Source: Chitinibacter tainanensis DSM 15459
GTDB taxonomy: Bacteria > Pseudomonadota > Gammaproteobacteria > Burkholderiales > Chitinibacteraceae
Reading direction: 5' to 3'
DNA: 64,000 bases
Assembly: GCF_000429785.1 (NCBI RefSeq)
Contig: NZ_KE386952.1
Location: 396,917 to 460,916 of the forward strand
Part shown: positions 4,694 through 24,890 of the stretch, in pieces
Numbering within the stretch: the first letter of the stretch is position 1
How the letters are laid out: each line of letters opens with the position of its first letter
Program-made: the position numbers and the translations under genes
Notes under the pieces: model-generated
Told to the model about the DNA's origin: nothing
What the model saw: the letters and a program-made list of their open reading frames with translations, nothing else
Database searches by the model: none

Positions 4694-4718
4694 GCGCTCC
4701 GCGCCATTCGTTCATCAA

Positions 4719-4767
4719 GGGTATTGCCCGCCAAGCATTCATTTGCAAGGCGCACAGGGCAATACCC
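4719..4767. repeat. 49-bp element, copy 3, likely acting as terminator of aroG
   Basis: Both ends are perfect and the arms extend to 13 bp (AAGGGTATTGCCC at 4717-4729 and its complement at 4757-4769), with a 27-nt loop. The right arm runs into TTTATTTTTT, so on the plus strand it has the form of an intrinsic terminator for the DAHP synthase gene. Confidence 0.85.
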
Positions 4768-4837
4768 TTTTATTTTTTAGAACTTACCGCACCATCTTAC
4801 TGCGCAGAAAAAGCCAATCCGGGCTGGCCAATCCACG

Positions 4838-5464
4838 CTAGAAATAATCGATCCGTGGCTGCGTTTCGGCCGCCAGCAAACGCTCGGCCAGCGCTTTTTC
4901 GCGCGCCGCCAGCGCCTGCATATTGTCGCGCTGGCCCACGGCCAGCCGCTGGCAATACACATCGCCATGCCGTGGCTCCAAAATCACCTTGCGCGCCCAT
5001 GCGCCGCCCCAGTCACACGCCACCAGCGGAATCTCTTCCGCCGCCAGCCAGCGCTCGGCAAACAGCATATTTTTACGCCCCATACTGAATTGCAGCGAGA
5101 GATTGAGCAGATCACCACCGCCAAAGGCCTTGGCCTGCAGCCGCGTGCGCATGGCGCCAGCTTTGAGCATGGCATTGAGCAGCACTTCCATCGAGGTCAG
5201 CCCCGACAGATAGCCGGCTTCATCATCTTGGGAATGTTTCAGGGGCACCAGAAAATGATTCATCCCGATCAGATGCTGCTCGGGGTCGTGCAAACAGACG
5301 GCCACGCACGAGCCGAGCGTGGTCTTGATCGGGTGATGGCGGTGCACGGCCACTTCGCCGGCCAGCAGATTATGCGCCCGGATTTCCAGCTGGCGCAGAT
5401 CGCAAGCGCGCTGGTCGACCGTTTCACCGGGCGTATCGTAATGAACCCATTTCATTGGCGGCAT
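4838..5464 (-). CDS. cheD: Chemoreceptor glutamine deamidase CheD
   Basis: A 208-residue CheD, which deamidates glutamines in chemoreceptors and, in many species, binds CheC. The catalytic pair is visible as C53 in TTLGSCVAVCLHD and H70 in LIGMNHFLVP; AKAFGGGDLL is the conserved loop. It has an extended C-terminal tail (about residues 165-208, charged and helical) compared with short Bacillus-type CheD. It is an orphan here, with no other che genes next to it; a soluble chemoreceptor lies 39 kb away in the window. The start at 5464 has no strong ribosome-binding site; an ATG three codons later is an alternative. Confidence 0.93.
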   Translation of the reverse strand: MPPMKWVHYDTPGETVDQRACDLRQLEIRAHNLLAGEVAVHRHHPIKTTLGSCVAVCLHDPEQHLIGMNHFLVPLKHSQDDEAGYLSGLTSMEVLLNAMLKAGAMRTRLQAKAFGGGDLLNLSLQFSMGRKNMLFAERWLAAEEIPLVACDWGGAWARKVILEPRHGDVYCQRLAVGQRDNMQALAAREKALAERLLAAETQPRIDYF

Positions 5465-5512
5465 ACGGGTGGGAGAACCGCTTTACTATAGGCCAACCCA
5501 CCCAGCCTTGCC

Positions 5513-6733
5513 TTAGGCGAGCGCCGGCGCTGTCTCGGCGGTTGCGTCGCTCACCTCGCCCCAGCGCGGGAAGGGGTCGGGCAGGGCACGCCAGCTGCCG
5601 CTGCTCAGCTCCGCCGGGGTGAGCAGGCAAGCATCCAGTTGCTCACGCAGCGCGGCTTCATCCATACCACAGCCAATCAGCACCAGCTGCTGCCGGCGAT
5701 CGCCATACAGCGGGTCCCAGTTGGCGCGGATTTCGGCCTGGCTCTCTTCATCGCTGGGCCAGTATTCTTCTGGCGTGGCCGCCCACCAGTAGCCGCCGGC
5801 GCCATGCCGGCAAGCCCCGCCCGCCTGCGACCAGCTCCCGGCAAATTCAGGCCGGCTGGCGAGCCAGAAAAAGCCCTTCGAGCGAATCACGCCCGGCCAT
5901 TCGTGATTGATCAAGGCCCAGAAGCGCTGCGGGTGCAGTGGGGCGCGGGCGTTCCAGACAAAACTACTGATGCCGTATTCCTCGGTTTCTGGCAGATGTT
6001 CGCCGCGCAGCTCGGCCAGCCAGCCGGGGGCGTTTTCGGCTTCGGCAAAATCAAAGCGCCCGGTGCCCAAAATCGCCGGTAGCGGCACTTGCCCTTGCTC
6101 GGCCACAAGCTGCACCGCGCGCGGGTTCAGCGCCGCCAGAATGCCCTGCAGCTGGCCCAGCTGCTCGGCGCTGACCAAATCCGGCTTGCTGATCACCAGC
6201 ACATCGCAAAACTCCACCTGCTCGATCAGCAGATCAACCAGCGTACGGTCGTCGTCTTCGCCGGCGCTGCCGCCGCGTTCTGCCAACAGCTCGCTACTGG
6301 CGTAATCACGCAGAAAATTAAACGCATCCACCACGGTGACCATGGTATCGAGCTGGGCCAGATCGGCCAGCGATTGGCCTTGTTCGTCGCGGAAGGTGAA
6401 GGTTTCGGCAATCGGCAGCGGCTCGGCAATGCCGGTGGATTCGATCAGCAGATAATCAAAGCGGCCATCGCGCGCCAACTGGGCCACTTCTTGCAGCAAA
6501 TCTTCGCGCAACGTGCAGCAAATGCAGCCATTGCTCATTTCCACCAGCCGCTCTTCGCCACGGCGAAAGCCGCCCTGATGGATCAGCTCGCCATCGATAT
6601 TCACATTGGAGAGATCATTCACAATCACCGCCACCCGCAAACCTTCGCGGTTGCGCAGCACGTGATTGAGTAAAGTGGTTTTCCCGGCGCCCAGAAAGCC
6701 GGATAAAACGGTGACCGGAAGTTTTTGCGACAT
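5513..6733 (-). CDS. COG0523 (CobW/ZigA-type) GTP-dependent metallochaperone
   Basis: A 406-residue G3E GTPase. The P-loop GFLGAGKTT (12-20), the metal-binding CICC (C70, C72, C73 in [12 protein letters not shown]), the Walker B-like ESTG and the base-recognition SKPD are present, followed by a CobW C-terminal domain with Trp-rich segments ([22 protein letters not shown]). Members of this class (ZigA, YciC, ZNG1) insert zinc or cobalt into client proteins and are often induced by zinc shortage through Zur. The upstream gap (6734-6869) carries a GTTGCGCAAC palindrome at 6785-6794 inside a run of GTTGC repeats; it does not resemble the usual Zur box. The metal and client are not determinable here. 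Confidence 0.9.
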
Positions 6734-6869
6734 GGCGGTTTTCCTGTTGCACTGAAAACGGCCATCATAATTAAACGCAACTCAGTTGCGCAACTATGTT
6801 GCATATAGAGCAAAAAAAATGGCCGGTGGGCAACCGGCCAAAACAGGGAGGATTTTCGACAACAATCGA

Positions 6870-7463
6870 TTACAGGGCGCCGATTTGCTGGCGGGCTTGT
6901 GCCAGCGCGGGGTCACGCACATCCGGGCCCATCGCCAGGCCTTCGGCGGTGATGACGCGAATATCGGTGATGCCCAAAAAGCCCAGCAGCACGCGCAGAT
7001 AATCCACATGGGCAATCCCGGTAGGGGTGCCGGCATGCTGACCACCGGCGGTAGCCACGATCACGGCGCGTTTGCCACCGGCCAGGCCTTCCGGGCCATT
7101 GGCGCCGTATTTAAAGGTCACGCCGGCCACGCTGATCATATCGATCCAGGCTTTGAGCTGGCTGGGGATCGAGAAGTTGTACATCGGCGCGCCAATCACC
7201 AGGGTATCGGCCGCCAGAAACTCGGCCATGACCGCTTCGGCTTCACGCACTTGCGCGGCTTGCTCGGCGCTACGGCTTTCGGCCGGCGTACCTTTGGCCG
7301 CCAGCAGCGCGCCATCCAGTTGCAGCGCATGCTGAGCCAAATCGCGGTAAACCACATTCACGCTGCTTTCTGCCAAGCGAATGCTTTCTACGACTTCGCG
7401 AGTCAGTTGGCGCGAAACAGAATGGTCGGCCAGGATGCTGGAATCAAGATGCAGGATATTCAT
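6870..7463 (-). CDS. azoR: FMN-dependent NADH:quinone oxidoreductase / azoreductase AzoR
   Basis: About 197 residues from the ATG at 7463, chosen because AAAGGA precedes it by 8 nt; an upstream in-frame start lacks this. The flavodoxin-like fold is shown by NILHLDSSI with SVSRQLT (FMN phosphate loop), IGAPMYNFSIPSQLKAWID and VIVATAGGQHAG. AzoR enzymes reduce quinones and azo dyes by two-electron transfer and protect against thiol or electrophile stress. A LysR gene is divergent from it with a 104-nt intergenic region containing the palindrome GAATATATTC (7509-7518), so control by that regulator is likely but inferred. Confidence 0.95.
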   Translation of the reverse strand: MNILHLDSSILADHSVSRQLTREVVESIRLAESSVNVVYRDLAQHALQLDGALLAAKGTPAESRSAEQAAQVREAEAVMAEFLAADTLVIGAPMYNFSIPSQLKAWIDMISVAGVTFKYGANGPEGLAGGKRAVIVATAGGQHAGTPTGIAHVDYLRVLLGFLGITDIRVITAEGLAMGPDVRDPALAQARQQIGAL

Positions 7464-7567
7464 GGTGGTGTCCTTTGCGCGGGGCGCATTCAAGTTTTGA
7501 TGGACACAGAATATATTCGATGCAAAATTGGCACTAGTTAGTGAATTTGGGAAGGATTGTTCTATCT
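7464..7567. promoter_or_regulatory. Divergent azoR / LysR control region
   Basis: The 104 nt between the two divergent starts hold the perfect palindrome GAATATATTC (7509-7518) and an imperfect one, CACTAGTTAGTG, near 7532-7543. LysR regulators typically bind such dyads between themselves and the gene they control. The binding itself is inferred. Confidence 0.45.
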
Positions 7568-8467
7568 ATGCAACCAATCTGTGCCGACTTTAATGATTAT
7601 GTGTATTTCGCCCGCGTGGTGGATTGCGGCGGGTTTTCCGCTGCGGCACGCCACATTGGCATCCCCAAGTCGCGGTTATCGCGGCGCATTGCCGCACTGG
7701 AAAGCCGGCTTGGGGTGCGGCTGTTACAGCGCAGTACGCGCAAACTCACGCTCACCGATGTGGGGCAACAGTTTCTCAGCCATTGCCAAACCATCTTGCG
7801 CGAGGGCGAAGCCGCCGAGCGGGTGGCCGCCAGCTTGCTCGCCGAGCCCGCCGGACGGGTGCGGCTATCGGCGCCGGCCGAATTACTCAATCGCCTCACC
7901 GAAATGCTGCAGCGCTTTATTCTGCAACACCCCAAAGTGGTGCTCGAAACCGTGGCCACTGCGCGGCGGGTCGATCTTCTGGAAGAAGGCATCGATGTGG
8001 CGCTGCGGGTACGCACTACCGATGATGAAGACCCCCAATGGGCCACCCGACGCCTACGCCCGGCCTATGCGGTGCTGGTGGCCAGCCCCGCGCTGGTGCA
8101 GCAGCTGGGCGGCATACTCACCCCCGGCGCGCTGGCGATGGCGCCGGCTTTGGGCGTGGTGGGCGCGGATCAGCGCATTCACTGGCGGCTGATGAATGCC
8201 CAGGGCGAAGTGCGCGAATTCAGCCTGCCGCCCCGCCTAGTTACCGAGCATTTTGGCTTGCGCCGGCAGGCGGCGCTGGATGGCCTGGGCGTGACCATGA
8301 TGCCGCGGGAAAACGTTGCGGCCGAGCTGGCCGCCGGTACGCTGGTGGAAGTTTTACCCGACTGGCATTTCCCGCCCAGCTATTTGCAGGCGGTGTATGT
8401 CAGCCAGCGGGGCTTATCGCCCGCGGTGCGGGCCTTGCTCGATCTGCTGGTAGAAACGCTAGGCTAA
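7568..8467 (+). CDS. LysR-family transcriptional regulator (next to azoR)
   Basis: About 299 residues from the ATG at 7568 (GAAGGA upstream at 7551-7556; an earlier GTG at 7541 is less likely). N-terminal winged helix-turn-helix: FNDYVYFARVVDCGGFSAAARHIG, then PKSRLSRRIAALESRLGVRLLQRSTRKLTLTDVG. The C-terminal co-inducer domain starts near residue 88. It belongs to the CrgA/QhpR-like group that often regulates quinone- or electrophile-responsive oxidoreductases. Its position, divergent from azoR, suggests it controls azoR. It ends directly against the stop codon of the convergent TDT transporter gene, with no nucleotides between. Confidence 0.92.
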   Translation: MQPICADFNDYVYFARVVDCGGFSAAARHIGIPKSRLSRRIAALESRLGVRLLQRSTRKLTLTDVGQQFLSHCQTILREGEAAERVAASLLAEPAGRVRLSAPAELLNRLTEMLQRFILQHPKVVLETVATARRVDLLEEGIDVALRVRTTDDEDPQWATRRLRPAYAVLVASPALVQQLGGILTPGALAMAPALGVVGADQRIHWRLMNAQGEVREFSLPPRLVTEHFGLRRQAALDGLGVTMMPRENVAAELAAGTLVEVLPDWHFPPSYLQAVYVSQRGLSPAVRALLDLLVETLG

Positions 8468-10826: not shown

Positions 10827-11434
10827 TAGACCATCAGTAGCACCTCAGCCACAGTCTTACGTGGTTTTCGCGGCCAATTGCCCGCGCCAGCGCGACCAAC
10901 CGGCAACAACATCACCGGCACTTCATGCTCCGCCAGACCGAATTCAGCACTTACCCCGGCCGCATCAAAACCGATCATCGGGCAGCTAGCCCAGCCATGG
11001 TGCTGCGCCGCCAGCATCAATGCCATCGCCGCCAACGAGGCTGAACGGATGGCTTCATCGCGCTGCAACTGCGGCTGTGCCTGATAGCCCTCGGTGGCAT
11101 AGTGCACCATCATCTGCTGCAGCTCGCTGCTCAAAATACCTGCCGCAACGGCGGGTTGCAGCGTGGTGGCCAGCTCGGTATGAAACCCCATTTGCCCGCA
11201 AATAATAAAGGTAACCGCCGCATCAGCCACTTTCTGCTGGCCGTAGGCTAGGGGCAGGAGCCGCGCCTTGGCCGCGGCGCTCTGCACAGCAATAAAGCGC
11301 CAGTTTTGTGCGTTGTAGGCACTGGGTGCCTGCGTAGCCAGCGCAATCAATGTCTGTAGCTGGACGGGGCTCAGTTCGAAATCCGGGTCAAAATAATTGC
11401 AGGAAATACGCTCTTGCAGCAGGGTGAGCAACAT
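10826..11434 (-). CDS. Nitroreductase-family FMN oxidoreductase
   Basis: A 202-residue nitroreductase-fold protein: FELSPVQLQTLIALATQAPSAYNAQNWRF is the N-terminal FMN-binding segment, and the C-terminal part has AALALMLAAQHHGWASCPMIGF-type residues followed by VPVMLLPVGRAG. Such enzymes reduce nitro compounds, quinones or flavins with NAD(P)H. GGAG lies 8 nt before the start. The upstream TIM-barrel gene ends 4 nt before it, so the two form an operon divergent from a LysR gene. The TAG stop overlaps a 49-bp element. Confidence 0.9.
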   Translation of the reverse strand: MLLTLLQERISCNYFDPDFELSPVQLQTLIALATQAPSAYNAQNWRFIAVQSAAAKARLLPLAYGQQKVADAAVTFIICGQMGFHTELATTLQPAVAAGILSSELQQMMVHYATEGYQAQPQLQRDEAIRSASLAAMALMLAAQHHGWASCPMIGFDAAGVSAEFGLAEHEVPVMLLPVGRAGAGNWPRKPRKTVAEVLLMV

Positions 11435-11438
11435 GGTT

Positions 11439-12254
11439 TTACTCCGTGATGGTGTGGGTGGATAAACACTGCCGTAACCAGTGCTGTACGGCGCGTGCTT
11501 GGGTGTGCAATTCAGCGGGGGCGCCAGGCGTTAGGCATTCCAGATACAGCCGGCCGCCATCAGCAAGTGCCTGCCATTGGGTTAGTAGCGCAGGAAAATC
11601 CACTATCCCGTGCCCCGGCTGCACCGCCACATCGGGGCCACGAGGGCCAAACTGACAGTCTTTCAGGATGAAGTGATCGATGGCCGGAGCCAGCTGCTGC
11701 AGATACGCTTGCAGCGGCACGTCCGCTCCGCCGTAATACAGCCAGTTGCCCGGATCAAAACTAAAGCGAAAGGCTATGCTGCCCAGTATGTCGCGGAAGC
11801 TCAATAGATCATTGACTGTCTGACTAATACCCCCGTGGGGCTTAATGGCAATCACAAGCCCAGCCGCTGCGGCCAGCGGCAACACGGACTGCATCAGCGC
11901 CAAATAGGCTGGCCGCAGCGCTGGCTCGCAACCCAAATCCAGCAGCGTGCTAACACCCAACGCAGCGGCATGCTCGATCAATCGGGCATAGCGCAGACTG
12001 GCGGCCGCCAGACCCAATTCCAGCCGCGTTTCAGCCAATAGCAGCGGCACTTGCAAGCCCGCATCAGCCAACAGCTGCTGCACCGCCCACCGCTCTCGCT
12101 CACTACTATCGCCATGCACCGGCACTTGCCAACCTTCAGCACTCGCCTGGTACATGAGGCCCACCTCAGTAAAACCGGCAGCGGCAATCGCCGTCAGCGC
12201 CGCAGGCAAGGGCAGACTCTGCCACGGTCGGGTGGTACAGGCCAAAGTAAACAT
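11439..12254 (-). CDS. Sugar phosphate isomerase/epimerase-like TIM-barrel protein (AP endonuclease 2 family)
   Basis: About 271 residues from the ATG at 12254 (MFTLACTTRPW); a TTG at 12293 would add 13 residues and I find no strong ribosome-binding site for either. The xylose isomerase-like barrel is shown by AAAGFTEVGLMY, then IAIKPHGG, RFSFDPGNW (metal ligand Asp), HFILKDCQ and GHGIVDFPALLTQW near the C-terminus. Members isomerise or epimerise sugars, inosose or hydroxypyruvate. The operon with a nitroreductase and a divergent LysR suggests a small catabolic or detoxifying module; the substrate is unknown. Confidence 0.85.
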   Translation of the reverse strand: MFTLACTTRPWQSLPLPAALTAIAAAGFTEVGLMYQASAEGWQVPVHGDSSERERWAVQQLLADAGLQVPLLLAETRLELGLAAASLRYARLIEHAAALGVSTLLDLGCEPALRPAYLALMQSVLPLAAAAGLVIAIKPHGGISQTVNDLLSFRDILGSIAFRFSFDPGNWLYYGGADVPLQAYLQQLAPAIDHFILKDCQFGPRGPDVAVQPGHGIVDFPALLTQWQALADGGRLYLECLTPGAPAELHTQARAVQHWLRQCLSTHTITE

Positions 12255-19133: not shown

Positions 19134-20024
19134 ATGGCATTGATTTACTACGAGCGGTTTGATTGTGACGACCAAGGCTGGAACCGCCTGGTGGGCGCGC
19201 ACGTGTTTCATCAGCCATCGCACCCGCCCATGCGCGAACGTGGGCTATTTATGTGCGGGATTTCCGAAGCGCGCGGCCATACCGAAATCGAGCGCATTGA
19301 TGCCAATTTTCATGTGCTGCTGTTTTGCCTTGGTGGCAGTGGCGAATTATTTGAAGGCGACCACACCTGGCCTTTTCAGGCTGGCGAGCTGGCAATGCAG
19401 CCCGCCCGCGGGCAGCGCGGTTTTCGCCGTACCGGCAGCGAGCCGATGCATCTGGTGTGGTTTCTGCTGCGCGATGAGCCGCGCTGGGCACATCTGAATG
19501 CCGCGCACTGCTACGTTAAACCCAACCCGCATGGCTGGGCGTTGCACGATGCTGTATCCATGTATCAGCGTGAAGCCCAATACAGCAATGACCGCCAGAG
19601 CTATACCCTGGTGATGCCAGCGCTAGAGTTGCTGTGCCAGCAGCTGGAACGTGCCGTGGGCCCGAGCGAAGCCAGCCCCGGCTGGCCGCAGCAGCTGCAA
19701 GCTTTATTCAACGCCGTAGCGCGCGAGCTGGCCCGCGATTGGCCGCTGGATACGCTAGCCAGCCAGCTGCACATCAGCCCGGCGCATTTGCACCGCCTGT
19801 GTCTGCAGCATCTGGGCATGCCGCCTGGGCAACAGGTGTTTGTGTTGCGCATGCAAAAAGCCCGTGAGCTACTCGCCAGCGGCCTGCCGGTGGGCAAGGT
19901 CGCCAGTCTGGTTGGCTATCAGGAAGTAGCCAGCTTTTCGCGGCGGTTTCGCCAGTATTTTGGCTATTCGCCCAGCCAGAGCCCGCAGCAGAAACCCAGC
20001 CGCGCCCCTACCGAAGGATCGTAA
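19134..20024 (+). CDS. AraC-family transcriptional regulator of the lipid cluster
   Basis: About 296 residues from ATG at 19134 (MALIYYERFDCDDQG); an upstream ATG at 19065 would add 23 residues and overlap the candidate operator. The N-terminal cupin-like sensor (about 20-140) is followed by a C-terminal double HTH: LDTLASQLHISPAHLHRLCLQ, and GKVASLVGYQEVASFSRRFRQ with the typical FGYSPSQ end. The downstream hydroxylase gene starts 8 nt after its stop, so it is probably the first gene and the pathway-specific regulator of the 19.1-24.4 kb operon. Confidence 0.9.
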   Translation: MALIYYERFDCDDQGWNRLVGAHVFHQPSHPPMRERGLFMCGISEARGHTEIERIDANFHVLLFCLGGSGELFEGDHTWPFQAGELAMQPARGQRGFRRTGSEPMHLVWFLLRDEPRWAHLNAAHCYVKPNPHGWALHDAVSMYQREAQYSNDRQSYTLVMPALELLCQQLERAVGPSEASPGWPQQLQALFNAVARELARDWPLDTLASQLHISPAHLHRLCLQHLGMPPGQQVFVLRMQKARELLASGLPVGKVASLVGYQEVASFSRRFRQYFGYSPSQSPQQKPSRAPTEGS

Positions 20025-20032
20025 TACCCGGC

Positions 20033-20812
20033 ATGACTGCGTTCTTTTATGACATTAGCTGGTACGGCATGATGGCCGTGGGGGTGCTGTTTTTTGCGGC
20101 ACTGTATTTGGGCTTTGGGGCGCTCAATCACGCCCTAAGCCAATGGCTGCTGCCTGCGCTGGGCTACGGCGGGCGGCTAGACCCGCGCCCAATTCCGGCC
20201 GGGCAAATCCGCCGTGAGCTGCGCCATTCGGCCCTGGTGGTGTTGCTGTTTGGGGTGGGGATGGTGTTTCCGTGGGGACTGCTGCAGCTGGGCTGGGCCC
20301 GGCTGGCGCCACAGGCCAGCGCCGGGCAGATTGCGCTGGAAATGCTGGCGCTGATTATCTGGAACGAAATCCATTTTTACCTCAACCACCGGCTGCTGCA
20401 CACCCGCTGGCTGCAGCACTTTCACTTACCACATCATCGCTCGGTGGTGACCACGCCGTGGGCCACCTACAGCCTGCATCCGCTGGAGGCCATGATGCTG
20501 GGCAATGTGATTTTGCTGCCGATGGTGGTGCATGATTTCAGTGTGTATTCGCTGATGATGGTGCCGGTATTCAGCATTTTTTTTAATAACATCGGCCATT
20601 CCAATTACGATTTTCTGCCCGATTACCAGCATGACCGCTGGTGGCTCAATGGCGCCCGCCGCCATCATCTGCACCACGCCTGCTACCACGGCAATTACGG
20701 CTTTATGTTTCCGTTTATGGATCGCTGGCTCGGCACCGATTTGCCGCCCGATGCTGCTGCCGAGAAAATCCGCCGTGCGCTGGCCAAAGCAGAGCAGGGC
20801 GATGCTGCTTAA
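20033..20812 (+). CDS. Sterol desaturase/fatty acid hydroxylase superfamily protein
   Basis: A 259-residue integral membrane non-heme diiron oxygenase. Hydrophobic helices (about 10-45, 65-90, 100-115, 150-190) surround the three histidine clusters: HRLLH (119-123), HLPHH (131-135) and HHLHH (211-215), plus CYHGNYG. Such enzymes hydroxylate or desaturate sterols, fatty acyl chains, carotenoids or other hydrophobic substrates using O2. It is the second gene of a tightly packed operon, overlapping the next gene by 11 nt, and likely modifies the acyl chain that the KAS III fusion uses or makes. The substrate is inferred, not known. Confidence 0.88.
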   Translation: MTAFFYDISWYGMMAVGVLFFAALYLGFGALNHALSQWLLPALGYGGRLDPRPIPAGQIRRELRHSALVVLLFGVGMVFPWGLLQLGWARLAPQASAGQIALEMLALIIWNEIHFYLNHRLLHTRWLQHFHLPHHRSVVTTPWATYSLHPLEAMMLGNVILLPMVVHDFSVYSLMMVPVFSIFFNNIGHSNYDFLPDYQHDRWWLNGARRHHLHHACYHGNYGFMFPFMDRWLGTDLPPDAAAEKIRRALAKAEQGDAA

Positions 20813-21683
20813 TCGGCGCGATTCGCAGTCTGTGGCCTATCTGCTCGCCCAGCCGCTGCTGGTAGCACTGCTGTGGCGTGTGCCCATGCACTGGGCGCTC
20901 ACGGCGGTGGTCTATGGGCTGGTGCTGTTTCTCACTCTCGGGGTGGGGGTGATTCACCATAATCACACCCACCGCAAAATGTGGCGCAGCAAGCGCCTAA
21001 ACCGTCTGACCGATCTGTGGATAACCGCCCTGCAGGGCCACCCGACCTTTGTGTTTTACCCGGCGCATATCGCCAACCACCACCGCTACCATCATGGCCC
21101 GCAAGACGTCGCCCGCACCTATCGTTTTGGCGGTGATACCAATCATTTACTGGGCTATTTGCTGCATCCGCTACAGGCGGGCTGGGTGTTGTACCCCTTG
21201 TTTATCCGCTGGCTGCGCCAGCTGCAGCAGCGCCATGCCGGCGCATTTCGCTATTGCCTGCTGCAATACGCCATTGTGCTGCTGCTGTGGGGCACGCTGG
21301 CGCTGATCGATGCGCAAAAAATGTTCTGGCTGGTGGTGCTGCCGCAACTGCATGGCCTGCACTGGTTACTGGCCACCAATTACCTGCAACACGCGCATGC
21401 CGATGGGCATTCAGCGCTGAATTTCGCCCGCAATTTCGAGGGCTGGGTGAACCCGCTGCTGTTTAATATCGGCCTGCACACCGCCCATCATCGCCACCCG
21501 CGCGCGCATTGGTCGAGCCTGCCGCAGCTGCATGCCCAATATCGCCATCACATTCACCCTGCGCTCAATGCCGGCCCTTTGCTGGCCTATATGGGGCGCA
21601 CTTATCTACTTAGCTTGCTGCACCCCCGCTGGCGCAGCCGCAGTCTGATGACCACAGGAACACCGCATGCCGATTCAGTTTGA
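20802..21683 (+). CDS. Membrane fatty acid desaturase (PF00487 type)
   Basis: About 293 residues from ATG at 20802, inside the end of the hydroxylase gene (translational coupling); longer frames upstream are shadows. Histidine clusters typical of acyl-lipid or acyl-CoA desaturases are present: IHHNHTH (51-57), AHIANHHRYHH (88-98), NYLQHAHADGH and HTAHHRHP, the last giving the HxxHH box. Four or more membrane helices are visible (VVYGLVLFLTLGVGV, CLLQYAIVLLLWGTLAL). It introduces a double bond in an acyl chain or similar. It overlaps the KAS III fusion gene by 17 nt, so all are made together. Confidence 0.88.
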   Translation: MLLNRRDSQSVAYLLAQPLLVALLWRVPMHWALTAVVYGLVLFLTLGVGVIHHNHTHRKMWRSKRLNRLTDLWITALQGHPTFVFYPAHIANHHRYHHGPQDVARTYRFGGDTNHLLGYLLHPLQAGWVLYPLFIRWLRQLQQRHAGAFRYCLLQYAIVLLLWGTLALIDAQKMFWLVVLPQLHGLHWLLATNYLQHAHADGHSALNFARNFEGWVNPLLFNIGLHTAHHRHPRAHWSSLPQLHAQYRHHIHPALNAGPLLAYMGRTYLLSLLHPRWRSRSLMTTGTPHADSV

Positions 21684-23568
21684 CCACGTTTATCTGGCCG
21701 CCGCCAGCCATTTTCTGCCGGGTGAGCCGGTGGATAACCAGGCGATGGATGCCTATATCGCCCCACTAAACCGCATTTCGGGGCGAATCAAGCAGCGTAT
21801 TTTGGCCGAAAACGGCATTCAAACCCGGCACTACGCCATTGATGCCAACGGCCACACCCGCTTTAGCCACGCCCAGCTGGCCGCACAAGCGGTGCAGGCT
21901 TGCCTCGCCCAGTCGAACACCCCCTTAAGCGAGATTGGCTTGCTCACGATGGGCTCATCGGGCGGCGATGCGCTGATGCCGGGCTTTGCCAATATGCTGC
22001 AGGGTGAGCTGGGCGCGCCACCGATGCAAACACTTTCCAGCCAGGGCGTATGCGCCGCGGGGGTGAGCGCGATCGAATTTGCCGCGCAGCAAATCGAGCT
22101 GGGCGCGCAGCAACATGCGCTGGCGGTCGCGGCCGAAATGCCGTCGCGGATGTTCAAACGCTCGCGCTTTGCTCCGCGCGGCTATCAAAGCGATTTTGAT
22201 GCACATTTTTTGCGTTGGATGCTCTCAGACGGCGCCGGCGCGCTGCAGCTCTCCCGCCAGCCCTTTGTGCATCAGGGCAATTTGCGCATCAAGCTGAAAT
22301 GGATCCACCAAAAGAGTTTTGCCGGTGATTACCCAGTGTGTATGCAGCTGGGGCTGACCGAAGATCGCAGTAGGTCGTTTCTGGATTTTCCATCGTCATC
22401 CGAGGCCGAAGCCGCGGGGGCGCTGGCTTTGCGCCAGGATATCCGCCTGCTGCCGCATCTATTTGATGTTTGCATTCATGAATACGTCAAGCTGGTTGAC
22501 CAGGGCTGGATCCACTCGACGCAGGTCGATCATTTCCTGTGTCATTATTCCTCGGCCAAATTTATGCCGGTGGTGGAAGAGCTGCTGGCCAAGGCGGGCC
22601 TCACCATCCCAGCCGAGCGCTGGTATAGCAATCTGAGCAGCCGTGGCAACACCGGGGCGGCCTCGATCTTTATTATGCTGGCCGAGTTTTTGCAGCAAAA
22701 AACCCTGCGCGCTGGTGAGAAGATTTTCTGCTTTATCCCCGAATCGGGCCGCATTACCGCCGCGTTTATGCTGTTTGAAGTCGAAGACGCCGGCAGCGAC
22801 ACCAATACCCATCCCAAGTATCAATCTACAGCCAATATATTAGAATCATCCCAGCCATATACCCCAAACATCCAGGCGCCACACAATCCGAGCGAGGCGC
22901 CCGAGCCCTTGCAGCCATTACTCGGCCGGCTGGCTAGTTTGTGGCAGGACTATCGCTCATCAGTGTGGCGCACACCGGTGATTCATCAACTGGTGAGCGG
23001 GCGCTTTGATGTGGCGGCCTATCGCAACTGGACTGCGCAATGGGTACCGCAAGTGCGGGAGGGCAGCCTCTGGATGCGCGAAGCAGTGGCCTCGCTTGAC
23101 GGTGATTTTGCCGCGTTGGGCGCGCTGATTGATCTGCACGCCAGCGACGAGCAAAATGATTTCCAGATTCTGTATCAGGATTATCAAGCCGCTGGCGGTA
23201 CTCAGCCATTAGATGCGCTGCGGCGTAATCCCGGCGGCGAGGCGCTCAATAGCTATTTGCACGCGCTAGCTGCCACGCCCAATCCAGTTGGGCTACTGGG
23301 GGCGATTTATATCATCGAAGGCACCGGCCAGCGTATTGTGCCGGCGCTATTGCCGCTGTTGCGCCAGCAAGTGGCGCTACCGCCGCAAGCCTTTCGCTTT
23401 TTGGAATATCACGGCGCCAATGACGAGCACCACTTGGCACGCTGGCTGGCCGCGGTGGAGATCACCCTGGCCTTAGCCCCCGAGGCCGCTGACGCCATCT
23501 ACGCCACGGCGCGCCGCACCGCGCAGCTGTATTTAATGCAATTTGACCATATTCAGGAGCCGGTATGA
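21667..23568 (+). CDS. Fusion protein: KAS III-type thiolase plus heme-oxygenase-like diiron oxidase
   Basis: A 633-residue protein with two domains. Residues 1-375 are a 3-oxoacyl-ACP synthase III-like condensing enzyme: nucleophile C129 in SSQGVCAAGVSA, H293 in FLCHYSSAKF and N328 in SNLSSRGNTGAAS, with the ESGRITAAFMLFE end. Residues about 415-633 are an all-helical heme-oxygenase-like (TenA/PF14518 type) domain with probable metal ligands H491 in DLHASDE, E551 in IIEGTGQ, and an H582-x3-D586-x2-H589 motif in YHGANDEHH as in diiron oxidases such as SznF and UndA. The linker (about 376-414) is Pro/Ser/Asn-rich, of lower GC, and contains a 49-bp dispersed repeat (22816-22864). Likely role: condensation of an acyl group followed by oxidative cleavage or N/C-oxidation. 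Starts overlap both neighbours (17 and 4 nt). Confidence 0.85.
   Translation: MPIQFDHVYLAAASHFLPGEPVDNQAMDAYIAPLNRISGRIKQRILAENGIQTRHYAIDANGHTRFSHAQLAAQAVQACLAQSNTPLSEIGLLTMGSSGGDALMPGFANMLQGELGAPPMQTLSSQGVCAAGVSAIEFAAQQIELGAQQHALAVAAEMPSRMFKRSRFAPRGYQSDFDAHFLRWMLSDGAGALQLSRQPFVHQGNLRIKLKWIHQKSFAGDYPVCMQLGLTEDRSRSFLDFPSSSEAEAAGALALRQDIRLLPHLFDVCIHEYVKLVDQGWIHSTQVDHFLCHYSSAKFMPVVEELLAKAGLTIPAERWYSNLSSRGNTGAASIFIMLAEFLQQKTLRAGEKIFCFIPESGRITAAFMLFEVEDAGSDTNTHPKYQSTANILESSQPYTPNIQAPHNPSEAPEPLQPLLGRLASLWQDYRSSVWRTPVIHQLVSGRFDVAAYRNWTAQWVPQVREGSLWMREAVASLDGDFAALGALIDLHASDEQNDFQILYQDYQAAGGTQPLDALRRNPGGEALNSYLHALAATPNPVGLLGAIYIIEGTGQRIVPALLPLLRQQVALPPQAFRFLEYHGANDEHHLARWLAAVEITLALAPEAADAIYATARRTAQLYLMQFDHIQEPV
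22816..22864. repeat. 49-bp element, copy 8, inside the KAS III/oxidase linker
   Basis: AAGTATCAATC to AGCCATATACCC, 49 bp; the left hexamer is AAGTAT, the right perfect. It shares GTATC-N7-AGCCAATAT with copy 60842. It is translated as part of the interdomain linker. Confidence 0.6.
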
Positions 23569-24449
23569 GCCATTTTCTGGATGCACCGCACGACCCCCGC
23601 GACCCTAACCCCTGGCAGGCCTTGTATCTCGACCAGAGCACCCCGTTGCCCGAGCCGGTTAAGCGCGCCTGGCTGACGGATTCGGCCTCGCCCTCGCGGC
23701 AATATCTACTGCCACTGGTGCGGCCATTGGCACGGCTGCTGATCATTGTGATTCAGCTGTGCAAAATTGTACTGCCGAAAAAATGGGCCGCCTCCAAGCT
23801 CTTGCACCGCATTCTGGTGTGGGGGCTGAAGGGTTTTGTTTCACCCGAGGCCAACTGGCTGATCTTGCGCCATTTTCACCTTGGCGCGCAGATCATCGAG
23901 TTTGTGGCCCGCAATGCGCCGGTGGAAGTGCCCCTATCGCCACTCAAGCCCGCTGACATCGATGCGCTGGAAGATGAGCTGTTTCTCAAGCACGACCTGA
24001 ACCTATTCAATTTTGTGATTCGCTTAAATCAGGCGCTGCAAGCCAGCGGCCAAACGCTGGCGCCAGTAAATCCGGTGGATTTCAGCATGATTAGCGAGCC
24101 GCCGCTGGCGCTGGCCGATATGCCGCAGGGGCGGCTGAATGGGATTGATCTACAAACGGCTATCGAGATTTTCACCCCGGTGTATCAGCTCTTTCTGACT
24201 GACAATGATTTCTGGCGCGCGGCCAATTCGCTGCAGCTGGATGAAACCATGGGCGTGTATGCCGCCACGATTCTCAATACCCCCCAACACCTGCTGCTAT
24301 TGAATAACAAGCATCCGCTGGTGCCGCTATCCACCCTGCGCGCCGGCCACCGGCTGGTGCTGCATGGCTTATCCACCGAAATGTTACACTGCCTGCTCAG
24401 CCGGCTACGGGCGGAGCAAGAGCTGGCGCAGGCGGGCGAGCAGGGCTAA
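23565..24449 (+). CDS. Unrecognised protein encoded with the KAS III-oxidase fusion
   Basis: A 294-residue protein that starts in the stop codon of the fusion gene (ATGA overlap), so it is co-translated. It begins with SHFLDAPHDPRDPNPW and a Pro/Asp-rich stretch, then a hydrophobic amphipathic region (about 45-75; PLARLLIIVIQLCKIVLP), the motif SPEANWLILRHFHLGAQIIEF, and a helical C-terminal half. I do not recognise the family. The acidic, conserved-looking E/N/H residues in the middle could bind metal, but this is a guess. Its tight coupling argues for a partner or next enzyme in the same pathway. Its last 45 bp overlap the end of the opposite-strand lipoyl-like gene. Confidence 0.75.
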   Translation: MSHFLDAPHDPRDPNPWQALYLDQSTPLPEPVKRAWLTDSASPSRQYLLPLVRPLARLLIIVIQLCKIVLPKKWAASKLLHRILVWGLKGFVSPEANWLILRHFHLGAQIIEFVARNAPVEVPLSPLKPADIDALEDELFLKHDLNLFNFVIRLNQALQASGQTLAPVNPVDFSMISEPPLALADMPQGRLNGIDLQTAIEIFTPVYQLFLTDNDFWRAANSLQLDETMGVYAATILNTPQHLLLLNNKHPLVPLSTLRAGHRLVLHGLSTEMLHCLLSRLRAEQELAQAGEQG

Positions 24450-24890
24450 TTCCTGCCGCGCAAAGGCATATACCGCAGCTTCATCAATCACGGCCACGCC
24501 TTGCAGCTGGCTCAAATCCAGCCCCAGCTTGGCCGCCAAGGTGGCCGCAGCGGGGCTGACCGCCAATAGCGGGGGGCTGGCGGGCGCGGCGCTTTGCGCT
24601 GCATCAGGTTCATCGGCGGGCAGGAGTAAATCGCCGGTAGGCAATTCGGCGATTTCCATCATCAGCAATAAATCATTGCTGTTCACGAAATCGCCATACT
24701 CGACCATCAAACTGCTGACTTGTCCGGCCTCGGGCGCCAGCACCGGCCATTCCTGATCGGCAGCCAGCAAGGTGATCAGGCAGGTATCCGCAGCCACTTG
24801 CTGGCCCGGTTTCACGTGAAACACGGCCACTTCGGCGGCTTCGGGTAATTCTGGGGCACAAATCAGATGCGTGGTGTAGCGCATTGTCAT
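24405..24890 (-). CDS. Lipoyl/biotinyl-like domain protein with E3-binding-like region, lacking the modified lysine
   Basis: A 161-residue protein. Residues about 8-80 fit a biotinyl/lipoyl beta-barrel (EVAVFHVKPGQQVAADTCLI, then LAPEAGQVSSLMVEYGDFV and LLLMMEI). The hairpin that normally reads ESDKA is here LAADQEWP, with no lysine, and the whole protein has only two lysines, both elsewhere. After an Ala/Pro linker, residues about 108-145 (VSPAAATLAAKLGLDLSQLQG, then DEAAVYAF) resemble the peripheral subunit-binding domain of E2 acyltransferases. It may be a scaffold or small-molecule/acyl-carrier binder. It is convergent with and overlaps the lipid cluster; a parS site lies inside (24808-24823). 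Confidence 0.75.
   Translation of the reverse strand: MTMRYTTHLICAPELPEAAEVAVFHVKPGQQVAADTCLITLLAADQEWPVLAPEAGQVSSLMVEYGDFVNSNDLLLMMEIAELPTGDLLLPADEPDAAQSAAPASPPLLAVSPAAATLAAKLGLDLSQLQGVAVIDEAAVYAFARQELALLARLRQLLLRP
24808..24823. other. parS-like centromere site B
   Basis: GGTTTCACGTGAAACA matches the ParB-binding consensus at 15 of 16 positions; it lies inside the lipoyl-like gene. Confidence 0.8.

Follow-up and report, generated by a model that had tools for sequence, protein, structure and literature searches.

What does a ketosynthase fused to an oxidase make, and with which partners? We address this question for a stretch of 64,000 nucleotides from Chitinibacter tainanensis DSM 15459 (contig NZ_KE386952.1, positions 396,917 to 460,916; hereafter the window, whose first letter is position 1), in which six closely spaced genes lie between 19134 and 24890. 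The original prediction, made from the sequence, had described these genes as a compact acyl-modifying cluster centred on a fusion of a ketoacyl synthase III (KAS III) and an oxidase, and we confirmed all six reading frames, their Pfam domains and their arrangement. The conserved unit is four of these genes, encoding an FA_hydroxylase, an FA_desaturase, a fusion of a ketosynthase (KS) with a heme-oxygenase-like diiron oxidase (HDO) and a DUF6999 protein. We tentatively propose, with somewhat less than even confidence, that the four genes form a cassette for one small oxidised acyl metabolite, in which the KS would make a dialkylcyclohexanedione that the HDO half would oxidise or aromatise with O2; we infer all of these chemical steps.

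All four cassette genes are on the + strand, with successive overlaps of 11, 17 and 4 nt. The first, FA_hydroxylase (20033-20812; PF04116, sterol-desaturase type, Pfam 1.3e-20), belongs to a membrane family and has predicted transmembrane-like segments, and 13 of its 18 His positions remain His in at least 76 of the 80 aligned rows (79 loci and the window). The second, FA_desaturase (20802-21683; PF00487, also a membrane family; Pfam 3.7e-27, run on 20796-21683), was given the ATG at 20802 as its start (frame position 20796 is no start codon); the His boxes HHNHTH, HIANHH and LHTAHH are retained in 72-77 of 77 aligned rows. For neither of these two proteins did phmmer find PDB relatives at E 0.01. 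The third gene, the KS-HDO fusion (21667-23568; Pfam Haem_oxygenas_2 1.5e-11 and ACP_syn_III_C 3.5e-8), comprises a KS domain (residues 1-372; 21667-22782), a variable linker (residues 373-405; 22783-22881) that is gappy in alignment A1 and has a pLDDT below 50 at residues 378-405, and an HDO domain (22882-23568). In its own genome the fusion is the sole full-length match to itself, a second match covering residues 44-163 at 30% identity, and PF14518 matches nothing there but the HDO domain of the fusion. The fourth gene encodes DUF6999 (23565-24449; PF22523, Pfam 1.4e-129), which at 431.4 bits is above the family cut-off of 27 bits.

When we scanned the DUF6999 alignment over named genomes, we found at least 558 relatives among 595 pattern matches, and the loci compared here are the best 80 of these relatives, a set that is hence biased towards the window. 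The order hydroxylase, desaturase, KS-HDO, DUF6999 is kept in 76 of these 80 best-matching loci, so the arrangement is beyond chance, and the predicted clustering of a hydroxylase and a desaturase around a condensing enzyme-HDO fusion is borne out. Counted gene by gene, FA_hydroxylase is present in 79 loci, FA_desaturase in 76, and a KS and an HDO that share an open frame in 78; the exceptions include one locus without a desaturase match (L096) and one short contig (L075). The AraC, lipoyl, AckA and APH genes that accompany the cassette in the window match in 0 of the 80 loci at E 1e-6. The most widespread family beyond the four core genes is found in 32 of 80 loci, with printed examples mainly from Variovorax or Achromobacter, in a count that used a crude gene caller, missed some core genes and ignored proteins of fewer than 80 residues.

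We found that the two genes flanking the cassette are residents of the site. The AraC-family regulator (19134-20024, + strand; Pfam HTH_18 1.1e-21) ends 8 nt before the FA_hydroxylase, and the lipoyl/biotinyl-like gene (24405-24890, – strand; Pfam Biotin_lipoyl 3.4e-8) converges on DUF6999 with a 45 nt overlap. The cassette is present in one of the three genomes drawn from the window's genus; the two cassette-free congeners (G004 and G694) carry the APH, AraC, lipoyl and AckA genes in the same order as the window. DNA similarity to the window ends at 19978 and 19980 in G004 and G694, respectively, and restarts at 24511 and 24448, and the stop codons of the AraC and lipoyl genes are 96 and 120 bp apart there with nothing between them. 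These junctions indicate that the four genes were gained in the window's genome, or lost in the congeners, as one block. Together with the 0 of 80 loci matching, they also lead us to reject the AraC and lipoyl genes as cluster members; of the six genes that had been grouped, the four core genes are kept together, and the two flanking genes, which adjoin each other in the congeners, are not part of it. All 13 genomes searched from the family gave a match to the lipoyl-like gene, and nine of them showed no DUF6999. AraC, now 8 nt upstream, may drive the block; a scan of the region for sigma-70-like promoters was uninformative (0 sites compared to 3.0 in shuffles). As for a mechanism of insertion, the junctions gave short imperfect repeats only and nothing convincing, and there is no tRNA in the window.

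The cassette is patchily distributed. DUF6999 was found in 17 of 399 genomes drawn from the window's order, and in all 17 KS and HDO stand in the same frame adjoining DUF6999 (stop-free frames were shown for 12); a hydroxylase match is present in 16 and a desaturase match in 15, the weak or missing cases being G101, G144 and G169. Among 200 genomes of the order, the full fusion was found in 11 and a KS match alone in three more. The 80 best-matching loci come from genera such as Deefgea, Iodobacter, Collimonas, Variovorax, Achromobacter, Alcaligenes, Azoarcus, Chitinimonas and Cellvibrio. In the phylum sample, DUF6999 was found in 9 of 398 genomes, two of which (G547 and G412) are outside the window's order, and no further carrier was found when the orders of these two were searched (1 of 148 and 1 of 118). 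The only DUF6999 match among the plasmids searched is on a Pseudoalteromonas plasmid, and the viral contigs searched gave no relative. A Caulobacter vibrioides control genome matched both DUF6999 and PF14518. In a quick tree of 24 fusions, with some weak forks, Collimonas is placed beside Chitinibacteraceae and a Janthinobacterium metagenome-assembled genome falls inside Iodobacter, placements that fit transfer between families. The cassette has probably spread by horizontal transfer, although its direction is something that we can only infer; AckA, used as a yardstick of transfer, matched in 9 of 12 genomes (none in G007, G068 and G093) and gave no clean comparison.

To which ketosynthases is the KS domain related? 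Its best NCBIfam model is NF005293, the StlD/DarB family (E 6.5e-99, 331.5 bits), its best PDB profile match is StlD (1.2e-134), and its predicted model aligns with StlD at Z 39.9 (root-mean-square deviation 3.1, 337 aligned), compared to a best Z of 33.7 for OleA. Scores on the curated FabH models fell below their thresholds (56.4 bits compared to 292.1 for TIGR00747 and 79.2 compared to 249 for NF006829). Thus, by NCBIfam, PDB profile and model comparison, the KS is nearest to StlD/DarB rather than to FabH or OleA; the predicted fusion of a condensing enzyme with an oxidase stands, and the label KAS III gives way to a StlD/DarB-like ketosynthase. The catalytic triad is conserved over the window and 78 loci, with His293 and Asn328 in all 79 rows and Cys129 in all 78 rows bearing a letter. 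A tree separates 12 fused KS from nine split, Streptomyces and DarB-type KS by a long branch (100/100 support), although its FabH outgroup lies too far away to root it. In enzymes of the StlD/DarB class, a beta-ketoacyl thioester is condensed with an alpha,beta-unsaturated one to give a 2,5-dialkylcyclohexane-1,3-dione (PMC4578411, PMC5515871; here and below, papers are cited for the excerpts that state the point). With a StlD/DarB-like condensing domain, the product is therefore more likely to be a cyclic dione or of resorcinol type than to be a linear oxidised acyl compound. On two Bacteroidales plasmids (L127 and L128), a StlD/DarB-type KS immediately follows a TetR regulator, and the stretch has no annotated DarA.

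The same comparisons bear on a route like that of OleA and UndA, in which head-to-head condensation of two fatty acyl thioesters by the KS would give a beta-keto acid, and oxidative cleavage of this acid by the HDO would yield an alkene, dienone or ketone. After StlD, the structures nearest to the KS are those of the OleA group (Z about 33), UndA is an HDO that acts on fatty acids (PMC13108848), and UndA is among the profile matches of the HDO domain (E 0.035). However, the KS is closer to StlD than to OleA in both PDB profile and model, and the catalytic Glu of OleA and PpyS, which reaches into the partner subunit, is not seen at its expected spacing: in PpyS this Glu lies 24 residues ahead of the active Cys (E105/C129), its OleA counterpart is E117 (PMC4578411), which precedes C143 (taken from PDB structure titles) by 26, and the window KS has no Glu at residues 103-105, a comparison by spacing only rather than by alignment. 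In addition, no OleBCD-like partner is evident among the loci and no fifth family is conserved across most of them. We therefore regard this route as improbable, if the strongest of the alternatives.

Some carriers have the KS, HDO and DUF6999 as separate genes. On the Pseudoalteromonas plasmid and in G547 and G412, the split gamma and alpha versions, the three are adjacent, and the association of KS with HDO is therefore independent of the fusion. On the plasmid and in G547, the split genes are preceded by a His-rich, membrane-like protein of 188 residues (L025 11427-11993 and L040 11441-12007) with 64% mutual identity and no Pfam match, and no hydroxylase or desaturase match was found within the available stretches. 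This His-rich protein is possibly an unrecognised membrane oxygenase, and the core may be KS, HDO and DUF6999 with exchangeable membrane proteins. In G412 (L039), an MFS/acyltransferase/AMP-ligase fusion follows DUF6999 directly and a TetR gene is divergent from the KS (4697-8098 and 11093-11713). The Pseudoalteromonas HDO, annotated as an iron-containing redox enzyme, has a 35% match to the HDO of the window.

DUF6999 itself is predicted to be all helices (pLDDT 87.5), and its invariant residues in 23 aligned sequences include His103, His143, Asp144, Asp226, His267 and Glu272. It may be membrane-bound, to judge from a hydrophobic stretch at residues 47-72. Its fold gave no match (best Foldseek E 0.55; best VIA Z 3.3 among 677 chains aligned), and we found no mention of its name in the literature searched. 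The idea that DUF6999 is a relative of DarA is unsupported: its model is all-helical, and the DarA-like rows have, in our reading, a flavodoxin-like N-terminal motif, a contrast drawn without a direct comparison of the two profiles.

The membrane families raise a further alternative, namely that the cassette modifies acyl chains of membrane lipids or counters oxidative stress, with the HDO handling O2 or H2O2. Both the hydroxylase and the desaturase belong to membrane families, the HDO-like DtpC guards Acinetobacter against drying (PMC13232832), and two loci have neighbouring genes that count in its favour: the MFS/acyltransferase/AMP-ligase fusion after DUF6999 in G412 and, in one Variovorax locus (L099, 7548-10837), a PLD-domain gene directly upstream of the FA_hydroxylase. 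Nevertheless, the presence of a condensing enzyme whose Cys-His-Asn triad is conserved points to the making of a new compound, and the patchy occurrence (17 of 399) suits accessory metabolism better than housekeeping lipids. A lipid or stress function is in our estimate less probable than the head-to-head route.

The HDO domain belongs to the HDO superfamily by sequence (PF14518, 1.5e-11, and homology), which is how this half was judged, the fold lists of the fusion model being filled by the KS domain. A profile search of the PDB gave 3dde at 2.6e-16, followed by 4wwj at 0.023 and UndA (6p5q) at 0.035. The predicted ligand frame reads E495-x2-D498, E551, H582-x3-D586-x2-H589, and neither these residues nor H491 and E465 vary in any of the 79 rows; one further fusion, L036, in a smaller set (A3), has Gln at 465. 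Asp498 stands where a ligand His is usual for HDOs, in every one of the 79 fusion rows, and by sequence the fusion therefore departs from the 3H/3C set (E/D-x2-H, E, HX3(D/E)X2H). The metal types named for the superfamily are 3H/3C, 3H/4C and mononuclear (PMC13108848), and the pattern of the fusion, read from its residues, appears to be none of the three. In AetD, the ligands include D76, H79 and E140 with an HX3EX2H motif (PMC11611611). The unfused HDOs of the split loci (L025, L039 and L040) also have Asp498, which is present in 15 of the 16 rows of A3; the 16th row is a Vibrio protein with His. Among 27 other PF14518 proteins, position 498 is His in 25, Asp in one and Asn in one (the Asp and Asn doubtfully aligned), position 491 is Tyr in 26, and position 465 is His in 24; these rows come mostly from one genome family and are non-independent, and they represent 27 of 30 loci, three being without a clean frame. 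In the phylum sample, one family commonly has PF14518 proteins similar to the HDO of the Vibrio parahaemolyticus plasmid locus L027.

The replacement of the usual ligand His by Asp in 79 of 79 rows could mean that the HDO is catalytically dead or merely regulatory, which would leave a plain KS-plus-desaturase pathway. A dead domain, however, would hardly need the other ligand positions and H491 to be identical in all 79 rows, and we give this explanation little credence. Chance fusion of an ordinary FabH and a TenA thiaminase, which a generic KAS III Pfam match and remote HDO profile matches to structures annotated as TenA might suggest and which the original prediction had named as what would refute it, is rejected and barely credible, given the StlD/DarB assignment by NCBIfam, PDB profiles and model comparison and the PF14518 domain with its HDO ligand frame.

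We return to the proposal that the cassette makes one oxidised acyl metabolite. In a first step, the KS would condense a beta-ketoacyl thioester with an alpha,beta-unsaturated one, giving a (carboxy-)2,5-dialkylcyclohexane-1,3-dione; the thioesters would be drawn from ordinary fatty-acid metabolism because no carrier protein was found adjoining the KS. In a second step, the fused HDO would oxidise the KS product with O2, most simply by desaturation or aromatisation, the job assigned to DarA; hydroxylation of the ring and oxidative decarboxylation are the alternatives. The two membrane enzymes, FA_desaturase and FA_hydroxylase, would prepare or decorate the chains, and DUF6999 would handle a lipophilic intermediate at the membrane or be an unrecognised enzyme. 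In known clusters, darA, named DAR-aromatase, adjoins darB (PMC3949708), and a DarA-like gene adjoins the KS in four of the loci that we compared (three with a DarB-type KS and one Streptomyces plasmid). In contrast, three DarA-like queries matched in 0 of 80 cassette loci, and a DarA-like profile was absent from 18 of 19 cassette genomes and from the window's genome. We place the HDO in the role of DarA because the DarA-like gene is missing from most carriers.

Several observations weigh against this proposal. The KS is below both StlD/DarB NCBIfam cut-offs (331.5 compared to 450 bits and 263.2 compared to 550), when a comparison KS (L043) reaches 593.3 bits on the StlD/DarB family model, and its substrate and product may therefore differ from those of DarB. 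Asp498 could alter or abolish the O2 chemistry of the HDO, and the Pseudoalteromonas HDO has no PF14518 match. It may be that carriers lack DarA simply because they make no aromatic ring. One of the 19 cassette genomes (G558) has both the cassette and, on another contig, a DarA-like gene. The name DarA-like rests on position and on the darA-darB order (PMC3949708), with no Pfam or NCBIfam model naming these genes, and although the profile matched three of three control genomes, two of these supplied profile rows, so that the independent positives are only G143 and G558. A single Streptomyces acyl carrier protein (ACP) query matched 0 of 80 cassette loci, a weak test for a carrier protein. The role given to DUF6999 is a guess. 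Finally, two Variovorax loci (L099 and L101) have the FA_hydroxylase and DUF6999 only, without the desaturase or the fusion, an arrangement that our scheme leaves unexplained; these loci may have arisen by deletion, or DUF6999 may have a second use.

A bolder version of the proposal, which we hold to be doubtful, is that the fusion is a self-contained ring-forming and ring-oxidising enzyme, in which a DarB-like KS makes a dialkylcyclohexanedione and passes it on to its own HDO half. The HDO, with a remodelled metal site of two His and four carboxylates that may include Glu465 or a His491 that has moved, would aromatise or hydroxylate carbon with O2 in place of DarA. In this version DUF6999 is a new, near-constant lipid-handling partner. 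If true, such an enzyme would define a new family of signals or antibiotics transferred through beta-, gamma- and alphaproteobacteria. Bacteria use dialkylresorcinols and cyclohexanediones as signals (PMC4414361), 2-hexyl-5-propylresorcinol is antifungal (PMC6403133), and the HDO superfamily has about a dozen validated members (PMC13108848). As the probable product of a widespread cassette, a further oxidised relative, made with an HDO replacing the usual aromatase and with an unexplored partner, would add a metabolite class and an HDO reaction. The cassette is small enough to be expressed whole, and the cassette-free congeners are natural controls.

How does the cassette compare with known systems? 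In agreement with the original prediction that no described pathway has such a gene set, we found neither a KS-HDO fusion nor such a cassette described in the titles and abstract openings among the literature matches listed, subscription papers being mostly outside. A Vibrio-type operon on a V. parahaemolyticus plasmid (L027, 5934-10085) has a gene annotated as thermostable hemolysin, an AMP-ligase, a PF14518 HDO with the canonical His at 498 and Tyr at 491, an SDR and a TPR protein, and no KS or DUF6999 annotated adjoining. The HDO superfamily (UndA, SznF, AetD) shares with the cassette a PF14518-type domain and the E-x2-x, E, HX3DX2H frame; in contrast, the cassette HDO has Asp498 for His (AetD has D76 and H79), has His491 and Glu465 as residues typical of its own group, and is fused to a KS. 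StlD, the Photorhabdus KS (PDB 5gk0 and 5gk2), is the closest solved relative of the cassette KS in sequence and model, but it is a stand-alone protein of a stilbene pathway with its own partners, and has 33-36% identity in structural alignments. In the DarA/DarB dialkylresorcinol pathway (Photorhabdus, Pseudomonas chlororaphis darABC, and the flexirubin and arcuflavin clusters), the KS is of the same superfamily branch and has the same Cys-His-Asn triad, whereas the cassette KS is below the StlD/DarB cut-offs, is fused to an HDO, has no DarA-like gene or ACP found adjoining it, and is accompanied by a hydroxylase, a desaturase and DUF6999. On these comparisons, we place the cassette with the DarAB kind, as a DarB-like pathway in which an HDO would take the position of DarA, with a putative product and putative chemical steps.

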